Assembly (NCBI RefSeq): GCF_022378355.1
Contig: NZ_JAKMAJ010000001.1
Coordinates: forward strand, 372,001-436,000
Direction of reading: 5' to 3'
From: Brenneria bubanii
GTDB taxonomy: Bacteria > Pseudomonadota > Gammaproteobacteria > Enterobacterales > Enterobacteriaceae
Length of the DNA: 64,000 nucleotides
Made by a program: the position numbers and the translations under genes. The notes below the pieces were generated by a model. That model saw only the letters and a list, made by a program, of their open reading frames with translations, was not told the origin of the DNA and ran no database searches. This document shows, in pieces, positions 18,653-54,284 of this stretch. Every line of letters begins with the position of its first letter. The stretch's first letter is position 1.

Positions 18653-18696
18653 TTTTTTGTGGCTTGCCATCCATGGCCGCCACCCTCCGGGCCGTC
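18653..18696. repeat. 44-bp direct repeat, copy 1
   Basis: Begins with TTTTTTGTGGCTTGCC and ends with CCTCCGGGCCGTC. It is identical over 44 bp to the copy at 18730-18773. Directly after it lies a palindrome, CGTCGCTAAAGCGACG (18694-18709). Each copy contains GGCC and GCC/GGC blocks that can fold. It resembles dispersed intergenic palindromic elements of this bacterial group; that comparison is from memory. Confidence 0.8.
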
Positions 18697-18729
18697 GCTA
18701 AAGCGACGTCTAAAACTTTTTCCTGAACG

Positions 18730-18773
18730 TTTTTTGTGGCTTGCCATCCATGGCCGCCACCCTCCGGGCCGTC
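18730..18773. repeat. 44-bp direct repeat, copy 2
   Basis: Second identical copy, 77 bp downstream of the first start point. It ends 8 bp before the ROK gene stop codon (18782) and so lies in that gene's 3' flank. Open frames running through both copies encode only a repetitive peptide and are not treated as genes. Confidence 0.8.
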
Positions 18774-18781
18774 CGGCGCGA

Positions 18782-46770: not shown

Positions 46771-47577
46771 GTCACGCGGCCGGCGGGTTGGCTAACGACG
46801 AGCGCCGTCCCTCAATGGATAAAATGAGAGCAGATATCTGACGCTGTCACCGCAGCGTCTTTATTCTGGAAAGCGGATGGATAAGGTGAGGCCGATCAAT
46901 CGTTCAGGTCTTGCTTGTTTTTAAATGCCATTTCCCACACGCCAGCGGCATAACATGCGAAATACCAAGCCTTCGGCCGTTTTCCGATAGCCGCCATGGC
47001 ATTTCGATCAGGCACTGACGCTCAATGAGCAGCTTGGTTGCTTGTCACAGAAGTAAATATTTATCGGCGTTGAGATAGCGCCGTTATCAAGTTCGATGCC
47101 TTCCCGGCCAATGTTACACCTCTCCCCGACTTTTGGCCCGCCACCTTAACGCCGTTGCCGGCAACGTTCCGCATTCCTGACTTGTTCCCGTTTGCGCAAT
47201 TTATCACGTGCCGTTGCAGGCGCAGAGTGCGGGAGGCATCCAATTTTTACCGGTGTCAGTTTACAGTGCGCTGGGCTAGTATAGCGCTAGAGAAATATCT
47301 TGATGCGCGTTGCGCCACGGGTTGCTTTCAGCGCCCGGTTTTCACCGCTATCGAACGTGCCGCTGTCCACCGGCTTCGTCTTTTCACCGACGTTGAACAG
47401 CAGCGACTTTTCGGCCTGTTTTCCTGTCACACAGGCTCCGCTATTATGACCTACTGATGACGATGCGGGTATGACCGGCCGGCTTCGGCCATACCCGGCA
47501 AAATGCCGGTGATAAACAACAAGAACAACAAAAATCACAATAAACTTTAAATTCAATGGATTAGAAAATAAAACCGC
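46771..47577. other. Long gene-free stretch left of the mutS island
   Basis: 807 bp with no recognised gene. It holds the aldolase terminator (46840-46863), two GC-rich hairpins (CGGGTATG/CATACCCG at 47466-47497 and CCGGCA/TGCCGG near 47495-47509) and short open frames on both strands around 47061-47460 that match nothing I know. The last 80 bases are AT-rich and lead into the mutS stump, so the original mutS leader may lie here. Decayed gene remnants are possible. Confidence 0.5.
46840..46863 (+). terminator. Intrinsic terminator after the aldolase gene
   Basis: Stem GACGCTG/CAGCGTC with a 6-nt loop, followed by TTTATT, 70 bp after the aldolase stop. Confidence 0.75.
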
Positions 47578-47637
47578 ATGAAAACCACTGATAATCTCGA
47601 AAACCACACCCCGATGATGCAGCAGTACTCCATTTAA
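47578..47637 (+). pseudogene. Displaced 5' stump of mutS
   Basis: Reads [19 protein letters not shown] and stops. Residues HTPMMQQY are the conserved MutS N-terminal segment and also occur in the intact mutS at 51720, whose first residues differ ([11 protein letters not shown]). This is best explained as the original (or an earlier) mutS 5' end cut off by site-specific insertion after codon 17. Confidence 0.8.
47611..47627 (+). repeat. attL-like 17-bp duplicated mutS sequence
   Basis: CCGATGATGCAGCAGTA, identical to 51759-51775 inside mutS. The 6 bp before each copy (CACACC and CATACG) are also similar. Taken as the left attachment site of the island. Confidence 0.78.
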
Positions 47638-47968
47638 ATATCTAATCCATTGAAATTCATTAATAAAGTTATTACGTCATGGATTCTAGTTTACTCATGG
47701 AATACTTTCATCATTAGTCTTCTCTGTTGGTAAACTTCTATACTTTGAAGATAAAATTATTTTTTGTTATGAAGCAACAGTTAGGTTTAAGTTAAATAGA
47801 CCAATATTTTAATTTGAAATTTATTATTTTTAGTGATTATCAAACCTACAAAATAAATTTGGATTACATTGCAACATAAAAAACCCGTCAGAGAATTCAA
47901 ATTCTGAAAGTCAAGATAACATACCCACTATTTCAAATTTATAAGATATATTACCTTCAACAAAATAA
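47638..47968. other. AT-rich left end of the island, no gene seen
   Basis: 331 bp, strongly AT-rich, without a plausible gene. TCATGGA occurs twice near 47677 and 47696, perhaps arm-type sites. A small AATT-centred hairpin lies near 47890. Confidence 0.5.
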
Positions 47969-48368
47969 TTAAATTCTTTTTGGATCACTTTCATCAAATT
48001 CACTTATAATGACAGAGTTAATTAGGTTTTTTTCTTCATCAAGAATTTTTGTTTCTATAATTCTTGTTATTTTATTTACATCAACATCGAATGCCAAGGC
48101 TGAAAAAAAACCACCAATCAAGAGTCCGATATCCCACAAGATCTGACAACTCAAAATTTTTAAAAATACCTACAAGTTTTAAACATTCCTGAGAATCATA
48201 GTATTCCTGGAACATCAGATAAACAACATCCAGGGCAGGATACATTTCGTAATCAGATATGTTATTTTTTTCTAGCAGAGATATTAAGTCACCATGAACT
48301 TTTGACAAAAACTCTTTTGCCTCCTCAAAGGATAAATAATTCTCTATCGATGTTTTTTCTTCTTTCAT
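47969..48368 (-). pseudogene. Small acidic protein gene broken by an A8/T8 frameshift
   Basis: A good Shine-Dalgarno (AGAGG, six bases upstream) precedes ATG at 48368. The frame runs MKEEKTSIENYLSFEEAKEF through DWWFFFSLGIRC and stops near 48081. Removing one base from the eight-base A run at 48103-48110 (T on the coding strand) joins it to the overlapping frame that ends ISEFDESDPKRI at 47969, giving a 132-residue acidic protein. Size, charge and position near a toxin gene are like immunity proteins, but I do not recognise the family. The change could be a true mutation, slippage-controlled expression, or a sequencing error. Confidence 0.6.
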
Positions 48369-48608
48369 TTAAACCTCTTTTTTATTCCCACATTCTTTTT
48401 AACCATAGATAAACTTTCGTCAATGTTTATTTGAAATATTTACAACGAAAATTATTATTCCAATTGCTTATATTAGTCATATTGAAAAAATAACATAGCA
48501 AAGTCCGGGCTTTAACATCGCACATATTTCGATGATTTAAAATAGCATAAGAATACCACCAGTCTAGGCAAGTAATGACTGAACACCTAAAAATGAGATG
48601 AGGGCATA

Positions 48609-48689
48609 ATGGAGATTAATAATTTATTGCAATACAGAAATACTTATCCATCTAACAAATATTACAACCATTTTTTAGAAAGCTTATAA
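48609..48689 (+). other. Possible 26-codon small ORF
   Basis: Encodes MEINNLLQYRNTYPSNKYYN and six more residues. GAGGG lies six bases before the ATG. It could be the start of a decayed gene or a chance frame in AT-rich DNA. Confidence 0.2.
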
Positions 48690-48880
48690 AAACCAGCAAG
48701 TAAACACAATAGTTAGCCACAAGAGGGACATTATATTTTTTCTCAACTGGTCAAGGGTCAAAGCAGAACGGACGAGAGACCAGCCAAAGCCAGTCTCCCC
48801 AATTCCCCATACATGGGGCAAATATATATAAGTCTGTTTTATTTAATAATTAACAATGAACTTTAATTAACCATTCTTAA

Positions 48881-48895
48881 CTGTGCATTGCACAG
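48881..48895. promoter_or_regulatory. Perfect 15-bp palindrome
   Basis: CTGTGCATTGCACAG is a perfect palindrome around one central base, in AT-rich DNA with no gene. It could be a repressor site. Spacing between CTGT and ACAG is seven, one less than a LexA box. Confidence 0.4.
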
Positions 48896-48913
48896 GATAC
48901 AAAATAAAAAAAG

Positions 48914-48947
48914 ACAAGTAACAATTAATATATTGTTCATTACTTGT
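48914..48947. terminator. Terminator-like hairpin in the island
   Basis: Arms ACAAGTA and TACTTGT enclose a second stem ACAAT/ATTGT. An A-run precedes it, so on the minus strand the stem is followed by T-rich sequence; it could end the toxin-immunity transcript. Confidence 0.45.
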
Positions 48948-49173
48948 TAACCTCTCAACTAAAAAAAACTGATTATTGAAATTCCTTTATAAACACACCT
49001 TCCAGCCTCAATTATAATAACCCTTGTATTAATACATGGTACTATCTTATGACTACATTCCTTAAATCAAAACATCTGAGAATATTAAAGAAGTAAAAGG
49101 CAATTAAAAACGGAGTAATTTAATTTATATGTAATTACCACATAAAAATATCCACATAATTTTCAATAACAGA

Positions 49174-49452
49174 TTAACAACCTTTATTTATTCGCATAAA
49201 CTCATTTAGTCTTGTTCCAACAGCAATACACTTCGCTTCAACCATACTGATATAATAATATGAAGGATTAGGCATATGCGCCATCATCCAGGGAAGTTTT
49301 TCTGAATATTCATTATCAGAAGTAGAGATCATCCATACAGGTTCACCATCTATGGTCATAGGACTGGCTTCATAGTATCGATCATCCCAACCTCGCCCAT
49401 TTTGTTCGGCATAATCTTTTGCTATCTGTATTGCTTTCTCCTGCGTAATCAT
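49174..49452 (-). CDS. Probable immunity protein of the HExxH toxin
   Basis: 92 residues, acidic, rich in aromatic residues (YYEASP, YYYISMVEAKCIAVGTR), no signal peptide. The start codon overlaps the stop of the metallopeptidase toxin gene by 4 bp (ATGA), the usual toxin-immunity arrangement. The family is not identified; immunity function is inferred from size and position. Confidence 0.6.
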   Translation of the reverse strand: MITQEKAIQIAKDYAEQNGRGWDDRYYEASPMTIDGEPVWMISTSDNEYSEKLPWMMAHMPNPSYYYISMVEAKCIAVGTRLNEFMRINKGC

Positions 49453-50000
49453 TGCTGAACTCCATACCAGACACTATACATAGTGGCCCCGACAGTCACC
49501 GGTCCCAGGAGAACCCCTGCGGCTTCCTGGCGTAAGAGGGAAAAGGTTATCTCATAGGTATTCCCCAAGGGAAATTTAAAACCCTGAACAATATATTTCG
49601 CACTCATTCCCCTTGCTCTTAGCAAACCAATAGTTTCGGCCAAGGCTTCTTCAAGATAGCGTAATATGTAAGACTTTGAATAAGCAGATTGTCTCATAAA
49701 GACCCGTAACTCACGCAGCAGATAGAACTTAGGGGCAATAGCCATATGGACTTGCTCGTGGTAAAGCGTGGTGAGCATTTTAATGTAGGCTTCATCTTTT
49801 GACATAGCTTCCGGATAGAAGTTACGGCCAACCACCGCATCTCCCCAGGGCTTTGTTGCCCCCTGTATGACATCCTTGTATTTGGTGATTTTTATTTTTG
49901 GCGTATAACGCCAGCCACCATTCCTGGGTAGATTCATACGCGAAGCAATCTCACCACTGTAACGGGGCATCACGACACCCCTTAGAGGTTTTTTAAAAGT
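49449..50000 (-). pseudogene. Orphan HExxH metallopeptidase toxin C-terminus, cut by IS
   Basis: The frame from GTG 49973 gives 174 residues; it stays open for nine more codons up to the IS boundary at 50000 (TFKKPLRGV), so the true gene continued upstream and was removed. The zinc-protease motif HEQVH (about residues 71-75 from 49973) is followed some 35 residues later by YLEEALAET, where the third metal-ligand glutamate would be. Such domains occur at the C-termini of polymorphic toxins (CDI, Rhs, T6SS effectors). The delivery part is missing. GTG at 49973 lacks a clear ribosome site, so expression is doubtful. Confidence 0.65.
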
Positions 50001-50030
50001 TGATCTGTCCCCGAAATTATTCCCACCTAA

Positions 50031-50873
50031 TTACGCTGCTATTTCATAATGCACCGGCGTTTGATAACCCAGCGTTAAGTACATGCGGCGGCGATTGTAA
50101 AACACCTCAATATAATCAAACAGGGCGTTCATTGCCTGCTCTCTACTGCTAAACGCTTTACCCTGCATCAGTTCCGTTTTCAGCATGTGGTAGAAGCTTT
50201 CCATTACCGCATTATCATAACAGCAGCCTTTCCCGCTCATTGAGCAGACTAAATCATTGTTTTTCAATATCTCACGGTACCGATGGCTGGCGTACTGGCT
50301 ACCTCTGTCCGAATGCACGATGACCTTCCCCGTCGGTCTGCGCTGTTTTATTGCCATCTCTAAGGCGTCAATCACCAACTGCTTTTTCAGGCGATTACTC
50401 AGACTCAGGCCGATAATGCGTCTGGAATACAGGTCAATCACCGTCGCCAGATACAGCCAGCCTTCTCCCGTGCGGATATACGTGATATCCGAAGCCCACG
50501 CGATATTCGCCGCTGACGGATTAAACGCCCGGTTCAGCAGATTGGGCGCGACCGGATAATCATGCCGGCTGTTGGTCGTCACTTTATAACGAACCAGATT
50601 CGCCGCTTTCAGACCAGACTGTTTCATCAGGCGGCTGATACGCGCCTTGCCGTGAAATCGTTGCTCATCGCGTAAATCACTTTGCAGGCGCCGGATACCG
50701 TAAGTCCCCCGGCTGTCGTGATGCAACTGAATCAGCCTCTGGCTCAGGGTGTCGTCAGACAACTGTCGTTGGCTGGGCGTTCGGTTTCGCCATGACTGGT
50801 AACCTCGCCTGCTGACATTGAGCAACAGGCAAATTCGCTTCACTTCATGGAAAGCCGATAACTGAGTGACCAT
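50031..50873 (-). CDS. IS3-family transposase OrfB (DDE integrase domain)
   Basis: 280 residues. An N-terminal HTH_21-like part precedes the rve domain with catalytic D in ASDITYIRT, D in HSDRGSQYAS and E in MESFYHMLKTEL. In this family it is usually made as an OrfAB fusion by -1 frameshifting from orfA; OrfB lies in the -1 frame and an A6G run occurs at 50914-50920. The stop codon is 30 bp from the IS end. Confidence 0.92.
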   Translation of the reverse strand: MVTQLSAFHEVKRICLLLNVSRRGYQSWRNRTPSQRQLSDDTLSQRLIQLHHDSRGTYGIRRLQSDLRDEQRFHGKARISRLMKQSGLKAANLVRYKVTTNSRHDYPVAPNLLNRAFNPSAANIAWASDITYIRTGEGWLYLATVIDLYSRRIIGLSLSNRLKKQLVIDALEMAIKQRRPTGKVIVHSDRGSQYASHRYREILKNNDLVCSMSGKGCCYDNAVMESFYHMLKTELMQGKAFSSREQAMNALFDYIEVFYNRRRMYLTLGYQTPVHYEIAA

Positions 50874-50881
50874 TACGTATC

Positions 50882-51172
50882 TTAGCGGCTTTCCCGCGCA
50901 AAGAACGCCGCCGCTTTTTTCAGGATAAGTTTATCCTCTTCCAGTTCAGCGATTTTGACTTTAAGACGGCGGATCTCCAGTTCCTGTTCGGAAAGCTGTG
51001 GCGTGTTGGAGAAAGCAGCCCCCGCCTTGTTCTGATAGCGTTTTTCCCAGTTGTAGAGCGTATTCTCTTTGATATCAAGCTCCTGTGCCATACGGGCAAC
51101 AGACTTGCCGCTTTCGAGCAGCAATGCAACGGCTCTGCGCTTGAACTCCGGAGTATATTGTTGTCTTGACAT
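50882..51172 (-). CDS. IS3-family transposase OrfA
   Basis: 96 residues with an HTH (YTPEFKRRAVALLLESGKSV) and a C-terminal leucine-zipper-like helix (LEIRRLKVKIAELEEDKLIL). It binds the IS ends. The A-run near its 3' end may allow frameshifting into orfB, though the exact slip phase is uncertain. Confidence 0.92.
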   Translation of the reverse strand: MSRQQYTPEFKRRAVALLLESGKSVARMAQELDIKENTLYNWEKRYQNKAGAAFSNTPQLSEQELEIRRLKVKIAELEEDKLILKKAAAFFARESR

Positions 51173-51234
51173 AGTGACCTCGCTTTCGTTGATTGGTTTG
51201 AAAACAAGGTGAGCGCTAAATCAAGGACAGATCA

Positions 51235-51572
51235 GTCTGAACTAGATTTCGGGCAGCTTCGCGAGCTTGATCAATATTCGTAAAATCAGAAACATTGCCA
51301 ATAGTAGAACGAATAACCTCAGATGGAGACTTACCTCCCGTCTTGGGGCGGTTGCCAGGAGAAGACACTCTCCGTTGAACAATATAGGTCTTTTTCGTAG
51401 CGCTGATTTTGACGCCAAAACCAACTGGTGAATCGCGGTGGTTGTCGGTGATAAGATAAGGCTTTCTATCTTTGTTGGGTAAGTAGACGACTCGCCCATC
51501 ATGATCGAGACATGGTTTTACGTCGATAGATAACTTATTGATTATAATCGACTGATTTAGTGTCATTTTCAT
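51235..51572 (-). pseudogene. Tyrosine integrase, N-terminal fragment truncated by IS
   Basis: About 112 codons from ATG 51572 (MKMTLNQSIIINKLSID). It matches the arm-DNA-binding and start of the core-binding region of phage/island integrases (GVKISATKKTYIVQRRV; IGNVSDFTNIDQAREAARNL). The reading frame then enters the IS and stops at 51216. The catalytic domain with the Arg-His-Arg-Tyr residues is gone, so the island can no longer move by itself. Transcription is away from the attachment site in mutS, 190 bp away. Confidence 0.75.
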
Positions 51573-51575
51573 CGA

Positions 51576-51675
51576 TGTATACCAGCAGTTCAAGTGTGTA
51601 TACCAGACACTAACTAGAATACATATGGTATACAAATTTATCGGTTCACATGGGTTTTTAAGGGTTTCACATGGG
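51576..51675. promoter_or_regulatory. Cluster of repeated motifs between integrase and mutS (arm-type sites)
   Basis: TGTATACCAG occurs at 51576-51585 and 51597-51606, and TGTATACCA inverted at 51626-51634. TTCACATGGG occurs twice, at 51645-51654 and 51666-51675. Two motif classes near the island end are what integrase arm and excisionase sites look like. They also overlap the only available promoter space for mutS and int. Confidence 0.6.
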
Positions 51676-51719
51676 GTCACCTGAGTACCCAAAAGACTTA
51701 AAAAACGAGTAAAATCAAT

Positions 51720-54284
51720 ATGAATGAGTCTATTGACAAGGATTTATCAGACCATACGCCGATGATGCAGCAGTATCTCAAGCTGAAGGCGCAACATCCC
51801 GAAATTCTGCTGTTTTACCGTATGGGCGATTTTTATGAGTTGTTCTATGACGATGCCAAGCGCGCATCCCAGCTTTTAGAGATCTCCCTGACTAAACGCG
51901 GAGCTTCAGCCGGCGAACCTATCCCGATGGCCGGCGTTCCCCACCATTCCGTCGAGAACTATCTGGCAAAGCTGGTGCAGTTAGGCGAGTCGGTGGCTAT
52001 CTGCGAACAAATTGGCGATCCCGCCACCAGTAAAGGGCCGGTCGAGCGCAAAGTGGTTCGCATCGTCACGCCGGGAACCATCAGTGATGAAGCGCTGCTG
52101 AAAGAAAAGCAGGACAATCTGTTAGCGGCCATCTGGCAGGATGGCCGCGGATTCGGCTACGCCACGCTGGATATCAGCTCAGGTCGTTTTCGCGTGACCG
52201 AACCGGCCGATCGGGAAACGATGGTGGCCGAACTGCAACGAACCAACCCGGCGGAGCTGCTCTATCCCGAGTCGTTTGAATCCATGTCGTTGATTGAACA
52301 CCGGCATGGGCTGCGCCGTCGACCGCTTTGGGAGTTTGAGCTGGATACGGCCCGTCAACAGTTAAATTTGCAATTCGGAACCCGCGATCTGAACGGATTC
52401 GGCGTTGAACAGGCAAAGCTCGCGCTGCGCGCCGCGGGCTGCCTGCTGCAATACGCCAAAGATACGCAACGCACTTCACTGCCCCATATCCGTGGCATCA
52501 CCATGGAACGTCAGCAGGACGGCATCATTATGGATGCCGCCACAAGGCGGAATCTGGAACTGACCCTGAACCTGTCCGGCGGCACGGAAAATACGCTGGC
52601 CGCAGTCTTGGACTGTACGGTAACGCCGATGGGCAGCCGCATGTTAAAACGCTGGCTGCATATGCCCAGCCGCGACATTAATGCGCTGACTCACCGCCAG
52701 CAGTCTATCGGCGTATTGCAGGATCTCACCCTGGAATTGCAGCCCTATCTGCGGCAGGTCGGCGATTTGGAACGCATTCTGGCGCGTCTGGCGCTGCGCA
52801 CCGCCCGCCCGCGTGACTTGGCGCGCATGCGTCATGCTTTCCAGCAACTTCCCGACATCCGCGCGCTGCTGGCGCCGCTGGAAACGGACTATATTCGCCA
52901 GCTTGTCGAGCTGATTGGTCAGTTTGACGAATTACGCGATTTGCTGGAACGCGCGGTCGTGGAAGCCCCGCCGGTGCTGGTGCGCGACGGCGGCGTTATC
53001 GCCTCTGGCTACAACGACGAGCTGGATGAATGGCGAGCGTTGGCGGATGGCGCCAGTGATTATCTGGACAAACTGGAGATCCGTGAACGGGAAAAACTGG
53101 GAATTGATACGCTCAAGGTCGGCTTCAATGGCGTACACGGCTATTATATTCAGGTTAGCCGGGGCCAGAGCCATCTGGTGCCGATACATTATGTCCGCCG
53201 CCAGACGTTAAAAAATGCCGAGCGCTATATCATCCCGGAGTTAAAAGAGTACGAAGACAAGGTGCTGACCTCCAAAGGCAAGGCGCTGGCGCTGGAAAAA
53301 GCCCTCTATGACGAATTGTTCGATCTGTTGCTGCCGCATCTGGCGGAACTGCAGCAGAGCGCGGCGGCATTAGCGGAGCTGGATGTACTGTCTAATCTGG
53401 CTGAACGCGCCTATACCTTAAATTATGTCTGCCCGACGCTCAGCGATAAACCCGGCATCAAAATCATCGGCGGCCGCCATCCGGTGGTGGAGCAAGTGCT
53501 CAGCGAGCCCTTTATCGCCAATCCGTTGTCGCTCGCACCTCAGCGCCGAATGCTGATTATCACCGGCCCCAACATGGGGGGGAAAAGCACCTATATGCGC
53601 CAGGCGGCATTAATCGTGCTGATGGCGCACATCGGCTGTTTCGTTCCGGCGGATCAGGCAGTTATCGGCCCGGTAGATCGTATTTTCACTCGCGTCGGCG
53701 CGGCTGACGATCTGGCTTCCGGCCGTTCAACCTTTATGGTAGAGATGACGGAAACCGCCAATATCCTGCATAATGCGACGGAAAACAGTCTGGTATTAAT
53801 GGATGAGATAGGTCGCGGCACTTCGACCTATGATGGTCTGTCCCTGGCCTGGGCCTGTGCGGAAAACCTGGCCAACAAGATCAAAGCCATGACGCTGTTC
53901 GCCACTCACTATTTCGAACTGACCAACTTGCCGGAAAAAATGGAAGGCGTGGTGAACGTTCACCTTGATGCGCTGGAGCATGGAGATACCATCGCATTCA
54001 TGCACAGCGTGCAGGACGGCGCGGCCAGCAAAAGCTATGGCTTGGCCGTCGCGGCGCTGGCGGGGGTGCCGAAAGAGGTGATTAAGCGGGCGAGAAAAAA
54101 GCTGAAAGAGCTGGAAACCCTGTCTAACAACGCATCGACCAGCCATATCGATGGCGCCCAGCTTACGCTGTTGAGTAATGAAGAACCCTCGCCGGCAGTT
54201 GAAGCCTTGGAGTCTATCGACCCTGATGCCTTAACGCCGCGTCAGGCGCTGGATTTGCTATACCGTCTGAAGAAAATGCTGTAA
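51720..54284 (+). CDS. mutS: DNA mismatch repair protein MutS with island-supplied N-terminus
   Basis: MutS recognises mismatches and starts methyl-directed repair. 854 residues; the mismatch-wedge Phe-x-Glu (GDFYELF), the Walker [10 protein letters not shown] and Walker [16 protein letters not shown] are intact, so the protein should work. The first residues [11 protein letters not shown] precede the conserved [17 protein letters not shown] and differ from the stump at 47578. The upstream DNA is island sequence, so promoter and leader are now island-derived. The ribosome site is weak (GAG 12 bases before ATG). Confidence 0.95.
51759..51775 (+). repeat. attR-like 17-bp sequence inside mutS
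   Basis: Second copy of CCGATGATGCAGCAGTA, codons 14-19 of mutS. Recombination between this and 47611-47627 would delete the island (4,148 bp) and rejoin the stump codons to mutS in frame. Confidence 0.78.

Follow-up and report, generated by a model that had tools for sequence, protein, structure and literature searches.

A decayed integrative element at the start of Brenneria bubanii mutS, probably the second element to have used the same codons

We analysed a window of 64,000 nucleotides from Brenneria bubanii (NCBI RefSeq assembly GCF_022378355.1, contig NZ_JAKMAJ010000001.1, positions 372,001 to 436,000; all coordinates below count from the first letter of the window), in which mutS, a mismatch-repair gene, is preceded by an orphaned copy of a mutS start. 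The 4.1 kb between the two copies of the shared core is what remains of an integrative element that entered mutS by recombination at its HTPMMQQY codons. We refer to the tyrosine integrase lineage of this element as type A, and to a second lineage, with an integrase of the Escherichia coli 536 type, as type B. We consider it highly probable that the site has a two-layer history, i.e. that a type B element and then a type A element entered the HTPMMQQY codons, that the latter was locked in place by an insertion sequence (IS), and that mutS has kept a borrowed 5' end. Both repeats, the type A end, the remnants of both integrases and the in-frame joining of the flanks are read directly from the sequence. 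Genomes, loci and contigs of the comparison set are labelled G, L and C, respectively.

The repeated core (CCGATGATGCAGCAGTA) is present exactly, on the plus strand both times, at 47611-47627 and 51759-51775. An earlier note on this DNA, made from the letters alone, had reported this 17-bp mutS repeat, and a search of the genome (4.89 Mb) confirmed exactly two exact copies, both in the window; shuffled sequences gave a mean of 0.01 matches per window with up to two mismatches allowed. When two mismatches are allowed the repeat lengthens to 47605-47627 and 51753-51775, i.e. the HTPMMQQY codons. The left copy lies in a 19-codon stump beginning MKTTDNLEN and the right copy in a full-length mutS, as the note had stated and as the open reading frames (ORFs) and a TIGR01070 match above its cut-off bear out. 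Its description of the DNA in between as AT-rich, with cargo and an N-terminal integrase fragment, also holds: the GC content of 47628-50000 is 33.6%, against 54.7% for the whole window. The core copies at both junctions mark the HTPMMQQ motif of MutS as the insertion point. The 17 bp correspond to codons 12-17 of the stump and codons 14-19 of the present MutS, so the proposal that 5' codons of mutS served as the attachment site survives with a correction, since it had named codons 11-18; the homology of two relatives up to the core and the elements of other relatives, both described below, speak for it.

The new in-frame start of mutS sits on element DNA, as indicated by two hidden Markov models (HMMs), one built for the non-coding DNA that separates the integrase from mutS (the type A end), the other for the leader, i.e. 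the first mutS codons. The non-coding HMM reached at least 25 bits in 26 of 141 loci (the best of 2380 decoys scored 7.7), and the stretch from integrase to mutS start is alike in most of 44 aligned loci, chiefly around AAAAACGAGTAAAATCAATATGAA. The same end is found beside complete integrases in relatives, so the claim that the element provided a new mutS start is upheld. The tyrosine integrase fragment of the window is transcribed away from mutS, and its start lies 147 bp from the mutS start, i.e. within 300 bp; only an arm-domain model matched it, below the cut-off of that model, and the complete relative matches PF00589. From the location of the start codon, mutS is presumably transcribed from the donated region.

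Relatives with complete integrases show the same arrangement. Elements of 12.0, 18.9 and 17.9 kb, measured from orphaned start to re-started mutS, were found in G002, G018 and G023, each with a complete integrase ORF (482-508 aa) and the same end as in the window. A search of genome contigs by integrase alignment gave 35 loci, in 32 of which the motif lies 178-208 bp from the integrase match (of the remaining three, one has the motif 936 bp away and the fetched stretches of the other two lack it). Other elements with an intact integrase at the same mutS position, for which the earlier note had proposed a search, therefore exist. In three of the 32 loci (L093, L095 and L096) the motif continues into DNA other than mutS, and in G023 the orphaned start itself looks element-like; both are as expected if elements re-insert into a site that integration has re-made. 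Among complete E. coli genomes, the type A end was matched in 133 of 5426, 131 of these having at least 80% of the integrase.

Within the genus, the type A end is present in seven of ten genomes (G000, G002, G003, G004, G005, G007 and G009), and in G006 another start stands next to a type A integrase that is spread over two frames. In the other two, G001 and G008, there is neither a type A end nor a type A integrase beside mutS, and the start seen in the stump runs straight through the site. The window to the left of the repeat matches these genomes through the end of the core (G008, 90% over 104 bp; G001, 87% over 119 bp) and to the right matches them from the core onward (G008, 89% over 205 bp; G001, 85% over 211 bp). 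In both genomes the left and right blocks of homology overlap by 25 bp at the core, as site-specific integration predicts.

Two side observations concern these relatives. The G023 element carries, near its integrase (L049, 15539-17524), a gene like gajA of the Gabija system (PADLOC, E 3e-240), so at least one mutS element carries phage defence. In G009, contig C4 has at about 59115 (L223 / L243) a near-exact core with one mismatch, reading NTPMMQQY, on a contig other than that of the mutS copy; no type A integrase or type A end lies within 4 kb of it, and it is possibly a secondary site or a leftover.

The start MKTTDNLEN is itself most likely the gift of an earlier type B element. The earlier note had taken the stump for the native host start; pieces of a type B integrase in the DNA to its left (Table 1) mark that DNA as element-derived too, and the stump is most likely the end of an older type B relic, the integrase of which is still present in G001. 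There a complete type B integrase and a type B end stand beside an MKTTDNLEN-type start, and an N-terminal piece of a type B integrase adjoins both the start of G008 and the stump of G002. In 10 survey genomes, G001 included, a long match to the type B integrase is located 245-276 bp from the core, and this type has its own conserved end. An HMM of that end gave 105.7 bits for G001, which was kept out of training, and 37.0 bits for G008; E. coli K-12 gave no match and the orphaned start of E. coli 536 gave -2.7 bits, and the type B end is therefore element DNA rather than general mutS upstream DNA.

The two integrase types are, judging from their sequences, distantly related. The integrase beside mutS in E. 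coli 536 (annotated at 249 aa) differs from type A, with no BLASTP similarity to it (E 1.5) and with different PHROG families (phrog_3423 and phrog_1 for the 536 integrase, phrog_216 for type A); a type B protein matches the G002 type A integrase with 26% identity over 239 residues (E 3e-4). We first took the types for unrelated, and the pair compared by BLASTP shows no match, but the 239-residue match led us to drop this idea. The use of G001 as an empty site was also rejected, given the type B integrase beside its mutS.

The alternative that survives best is a single layer, i.e. a type A element that entered an original host start MKTTDNLEN, with the type B pieces derived from an unrelated insertion nearby. 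Such a history would fit the low score that the stump has with the type B HMM (17.5 bits), and no second orphaned start was found to the left (window 1-47000). However, it leaves unexplained why the same start stands directly beside a complete type B integrase in G001, where the end scores highly despite being outside the training set, and why the type B pieces of the window share one orientation and lie directly beside the stump; the K-12 and 536 scores also tell against it. We therefore regard a single layer as unlikely.

Several results count against the two-layer history or parts of it. The score of the stretch upstream of the stump is below that of one of 2480 decoys (23.4 bits; the next decoy scored 7.2), and because of this weak score the main support for the older layer comes from the integrase pieces and from the G001 end, to which 95 bp match at 86%. 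A left end for the type B element was looked for without success, in that no weak copy of HTPMMQQY with up to three changes occurs in the three forward frames of window 1-47000. The comparison with relatives lacking the island, which the earlier note had put forward as a check, gave a mixed answer: G001 and G008 run through the core with the start of the stump and with the 25-bp overlap, yet neither is a fully empty site, because G001 has a type B element and G008 a weak match to the type A integrase about 1.5 kb upstream (32 residues, E 1e-4). In an order-wide sample, a type A integrase was found at E 1e-30 in one of 394 genomes, this being the fragment in the window itself, so that complete ones looked rare. 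A consensus promoter scan of the donated region (51480-51780) found none, and one of 47300-47760 found one on the minus strand, with neither stretch above shuffles. The claim that MutS is expressed from island DNA is thus backed by the position of the start codon and not by a recognisable promoter.

The sequence of events that we favour would have run as follows. The HTPMMQQY codons would be an attachment site for at least two clearly different lineages of tyrosine-integrase elements. An older type B element would have inserted in an ancestor, giving mutS a 5' end and the start MKTTDNLEN, and then have decayed to the pseudogene beside the stump. A type A element would next have recombined into the same codons, orphaning the MKTTDNLEN start as a 19-codon ORF and providing a second end and start, from which mutS would now be read. 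Finally, an IS3-family insertion, probably with an adjacent deletion, would have wrecked the type A integrase; with the integrase destroyed, the element would be locked in place and mutS would retain its borrowed 5' end. Both this order and the loss of mobility are inferred.

The IS3-family IS is a separate insertion, later than the type A element. The integrase breaks exactly at the IS end, after 'LVQT' (codon 113); no target duplication was seen at the IS flanks, and the missing part of the integrase is absent from the other side of the IS, for which a deletion adjacent to the IS is the simplest reading. A whole-genome search with the type A integrase (draft assembly, 533 contigs) returned the window fragment only. 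Because the integrase is cut and has no other match in the genome, the window copy of the element is apparently dead, and its excision is not expected. When the flanks were joined in silico the frame stayed open to the mutS stop, i.e. the excision product is in frame, without a frameshift. The idea of integration-dependent mutator switching, raised in the earlier note, is therefore not supported for the window copy.

A live switch, in which an integrase acting in trans still excises the element and modulates MutS as in Vibrio splendidus 12B01, would draw on the intact state of both core copies and on the excision of such elements in other bacteria that is described in the consulted sections of Chu et al. 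(2017, PMC5296598). We consider it very improbable, given that no second type A integrase was matched in the draft genome (type B integrases elsewhere were not sought) and that an in-frame excision product would not be expected to give a mutator phenotype from a scar. An origin of the repeat in tandem duplication or misassembly can practically be dismissed. Nothing was found in its favour; the assembly is in 533 contigs, but a single contig holds the two copies. Against it, many other genomes show this junction, end and start together with a complete integrase, and the homology to relatives stops at the core.

We then compared donated ends with surviving integrases in 125 genomes of the family. 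These were drawn from 141 loci of 138 genomes, i.e. 40 of the 53 genomes that had a MutS match, then 100 stretches from 97 genomes selected among the exact-core matches listed, and the window; 13 genomes of other families were left out, as were three contigs that break off in a stump or at an element junction (G222.C10, G130.C26 and G097.C144). Since all 97 genomes of the second batch have the exact core, degenerate sites are under-sampled. The training and survey sets share G083, G130 and G200, and nine of the ten type B training ends are survey loci, so the HMM scores of the shared loci are not independent. In this non-random sample 68 of the 125 genomes have a type A end (32) or a type B end (36), and none has both. 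The 13 genomes of other families, serving as a negative control, all scored at most 8 bits with the type A leader and type B HMMs.

A complete matching integrase, present as one match, accompanies the end in only 14 of these 68 genomes (type A, 6/32; type B, 8/36); in G177 and G323 (type B) the integrase is there in several pieces, and six of the 68 have less than 7 kb of contig upstream. Where at least 7 kb is available, a complete integrase of the same type is missing from 22 of 28 type A genomes and 27 of 34 type B genomes, with no match whatever in 12 and 13 of them, respectively. Donated mutS 5' ends therefore seem to outlast their elements; the shorter matches of type B leave the direction of transfer less certain. 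Some type A relics are reduced to the stretch around the start (G416 and G132). The type A end is present in all five sampled genomes (G032, G200, G283, G349 and G405) of the genus that holds Citrobacter gillenii (g24), one of them with a complete integrase. One of the 32 type A genomes, G026 (L051), retains only the non-coding type A end and an integrase trace; the start that follows them is of another type (MSTTENFDA), which would fit a further replacement of the start by recombination. In G374 (L161) mutS starts with MEKEDISLHTPMM, an orphaned start MSTPESLDAHAPMM lies 8.4 kb upstream and neither integrase type is found beside mutS; this is perhaps a third kind of end.

In the Salmonella genus the type A end is present in four of five genomes; three of the four hold fragments of the integrase, and in the fourth 440 residues match, up to where the fetched stretch ends. 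This raised the question of whether Salmonella pathogenicity island 1 (SPI-1) arrived by integration into mutS, which we disfavour. In S. diarizonae G421 the start MTDIKNLD has been displaced to 12.5 kb from mutS and matches the start of G425, which is unbroken (L242, L216), and the consulted part of a study of SPI-1 evolution places a second S. diarizonae island between invH and mutS (PMC7232297); SPI-1 should therefore lie outside the element. The same part of that study describes phage integration sites as 'not apparent' in the fhlA-mutS island hotspot (PMC7232297). For the part of this hotspot next to mutS, the HTPMMQQY core would provide a definite site of integration.

With some reserve, we lean towards a broader view in which the mutS 5' region and first codons of Enterobacteriaceae are largely hand-me-downs, reset serially by two integrase lineages at one motif, with the ends outlasting the elements and later elements entering the site anew once it has been re-made. 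The rates of mutation and recombination depend on mutS. Should its upstream region and N-terminus have been exchanged again and again for element ends that became fixed, the ways in which mutS control differs among related bacteria may be relics of mobile DNA, and past insertions could be read from the start of MutS.

The features of the region are collected in Table 1. The three small ORFs between the left end of the type A element and the IS matched no family in Pfam, PADLOC or NCBIfam at E 0.01; one of them contains an HEQVH stretch, which we take to be a metallopeptidase-like motif. The overlapping pair at 49174-49973 resembles an orphan toxin and immunity pair, no family being matched. 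A profile search of solved structures at E 0.01 gave no match, and 12 phage records had a match, each at less than 60% identity. An inverted repeat of 25 nt (84% complementary) has the stump between its arms, one to the left of the stump (47549-47573) and the other in the type A left end (47633-47657), and may be chance or a hairpin. Far from mutS, at about 18660-18780, the window has a short direct repeat with two copies of GTGGCTTGCCATCCATGGCCGCCACCCTCCGGGCCGTC.

Table 1. Positions of features at the mutS site, in order along the window.
Feature	Position	Strand	Evidence
Type B integrase remnant, C-terminal piece (about residues 349-391)	46946..47074	-	tblastn, 44-53% identity over 43 residues, best E 2e-7
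Type B integrase remnant, N-terminal piece (about residues 16-111)	47173..47460	-	tblastn, 51% over 96 residues to G001 protein, E 3e-21
Stretch 5' of stump matching type B end	47508..47566	+	86% over 95 bp to G001 end; type B HMM 17.5 bits
Orphaned mutS start (stump), 19 codons, begins MKTTDNLEN	47578..47637	+	Sequence; start same as G001, G008 and G002 stump
Left copy of attachment core (HTPMMQQY codons)	47605..47627	+	Exact-repeat and mismatch searches
Left end of type A element	47628..47710		78% over 59 bp (47650-47708) to L093 element, E 2e-5; by eye like L106, L096
Small ORF, 95 aa, cargo	48081..48368	-	ORF list; no Pfam, PADLOC or NCBIfam match at E 0.01
ORF, 92 aa, cargo, 4-base overlap with 49449-49973 gene	49174..49452	-	ORF list; no family match at E 0.01
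ORF, 174 aa, HEQVH stretch, cargo	49449..49973	-	ORF list; no family match at E 0.01
IS3-family insertion sequence, ends TGATCTGTCC/GGACAGATCA; OrfA 50882-51172, OrfB 50031-50873	50001..51234	-	NCBIfam transpos_IS3; junctions read; partial relatives elsewhere in genome
Type A integrase, codons 1-113 of about 487, IS-truncated	51235..51572	-	95% identity to complete G023 integrase; junction read; sole match in genome
Donated 5' region, integrase to mutS start (type A end)	51573..51719	+	Non-coding HMM 116.2 bits; best of 2380 decoys 7.7
Donated first mutS codons	51720..51752	+	Similar start beside complete type A integrases; leader HMM 63.9 bits, best of 2480 decoys 5.5
mutS, full length, 854 aa	51720..54284	+	NCBIfam TIGR01070, 1322 bits vs cut-off 641.7
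Right copy of attachment core	51753..51775	+	Exact-repeat and mismatch searches

Elements that enter the 5' end of a gene and re-supply it are known from other systems. SXT/R391 elements insert in the 5' end of prfC and supply a new 5' end; they differ from the present case in being conjugative and in their target, no conjugation genes having been seen in the window remnant. The SpyCI islands of Streptococcus pyogenes lie in the 5' end of a mismatch-repair gene and can decay while the function of the gene is kept. In SpyCIM5, according to the consulted part of its description, a deletion has left the integrase inactive, and mutL owes its expression to a promoter inside int (PMC3430984). On the same partial description, the SpyCI differ in being phage-like Gram-positive islands in mutL with regulated excision, whereas in the mutS case the gene also gains a start and its first codons.

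The closest precedent is that of Chu et al. (2017, PMC5296598), the only paper found in a full-text search of open-licence papers for HTPMMQQ. Its consulted sections describe, for Beta- and Gammaproteobacteria, elements that sit in the MutS HTPMMQQ motif, range from 4 kb to over 150 kb in length and provide a promoter and a start for mutS. They report a 2-bp excision scar that leads to a hypermutator state in V. splendidus 12B01, clean excision in E. coli 536, Pseudomonas putida F1 and Burkholderia multivorans CF2, and one 7-kb element for which no excision was detected and which may be degraded. As far as these sections go, the window element resembles those of Chu et al. in the motif, the orphaned start at the left, the element-supplied mutS start at the right and the integrase near mutS. 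Its excision product, being in frame, is unlike that of 12B01 and like those of E. coli 536, P. putida F1 and B. multivorans CF2. BLASTP showed no similarity between its integrase lineage and the annotated integrase of E. coli 536 (E 1.5). The window element is unlike those described there in that its integrase is broken, so that excision is not expected, and in that its stump is itself the probable relic of another element. Neither serial replacement by two integrase lineages nor fixation of a donated mutS start was found in the consulted parts of the open-licence literature. Integration into mutS is thus already published as a kind, and the window copy is a further, apparently inactive example; beyond the naming of mutS as a target in the consulted sections of Chu et al. 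(2017), the present analysis adds the two layers and the persistence of the donated ends.

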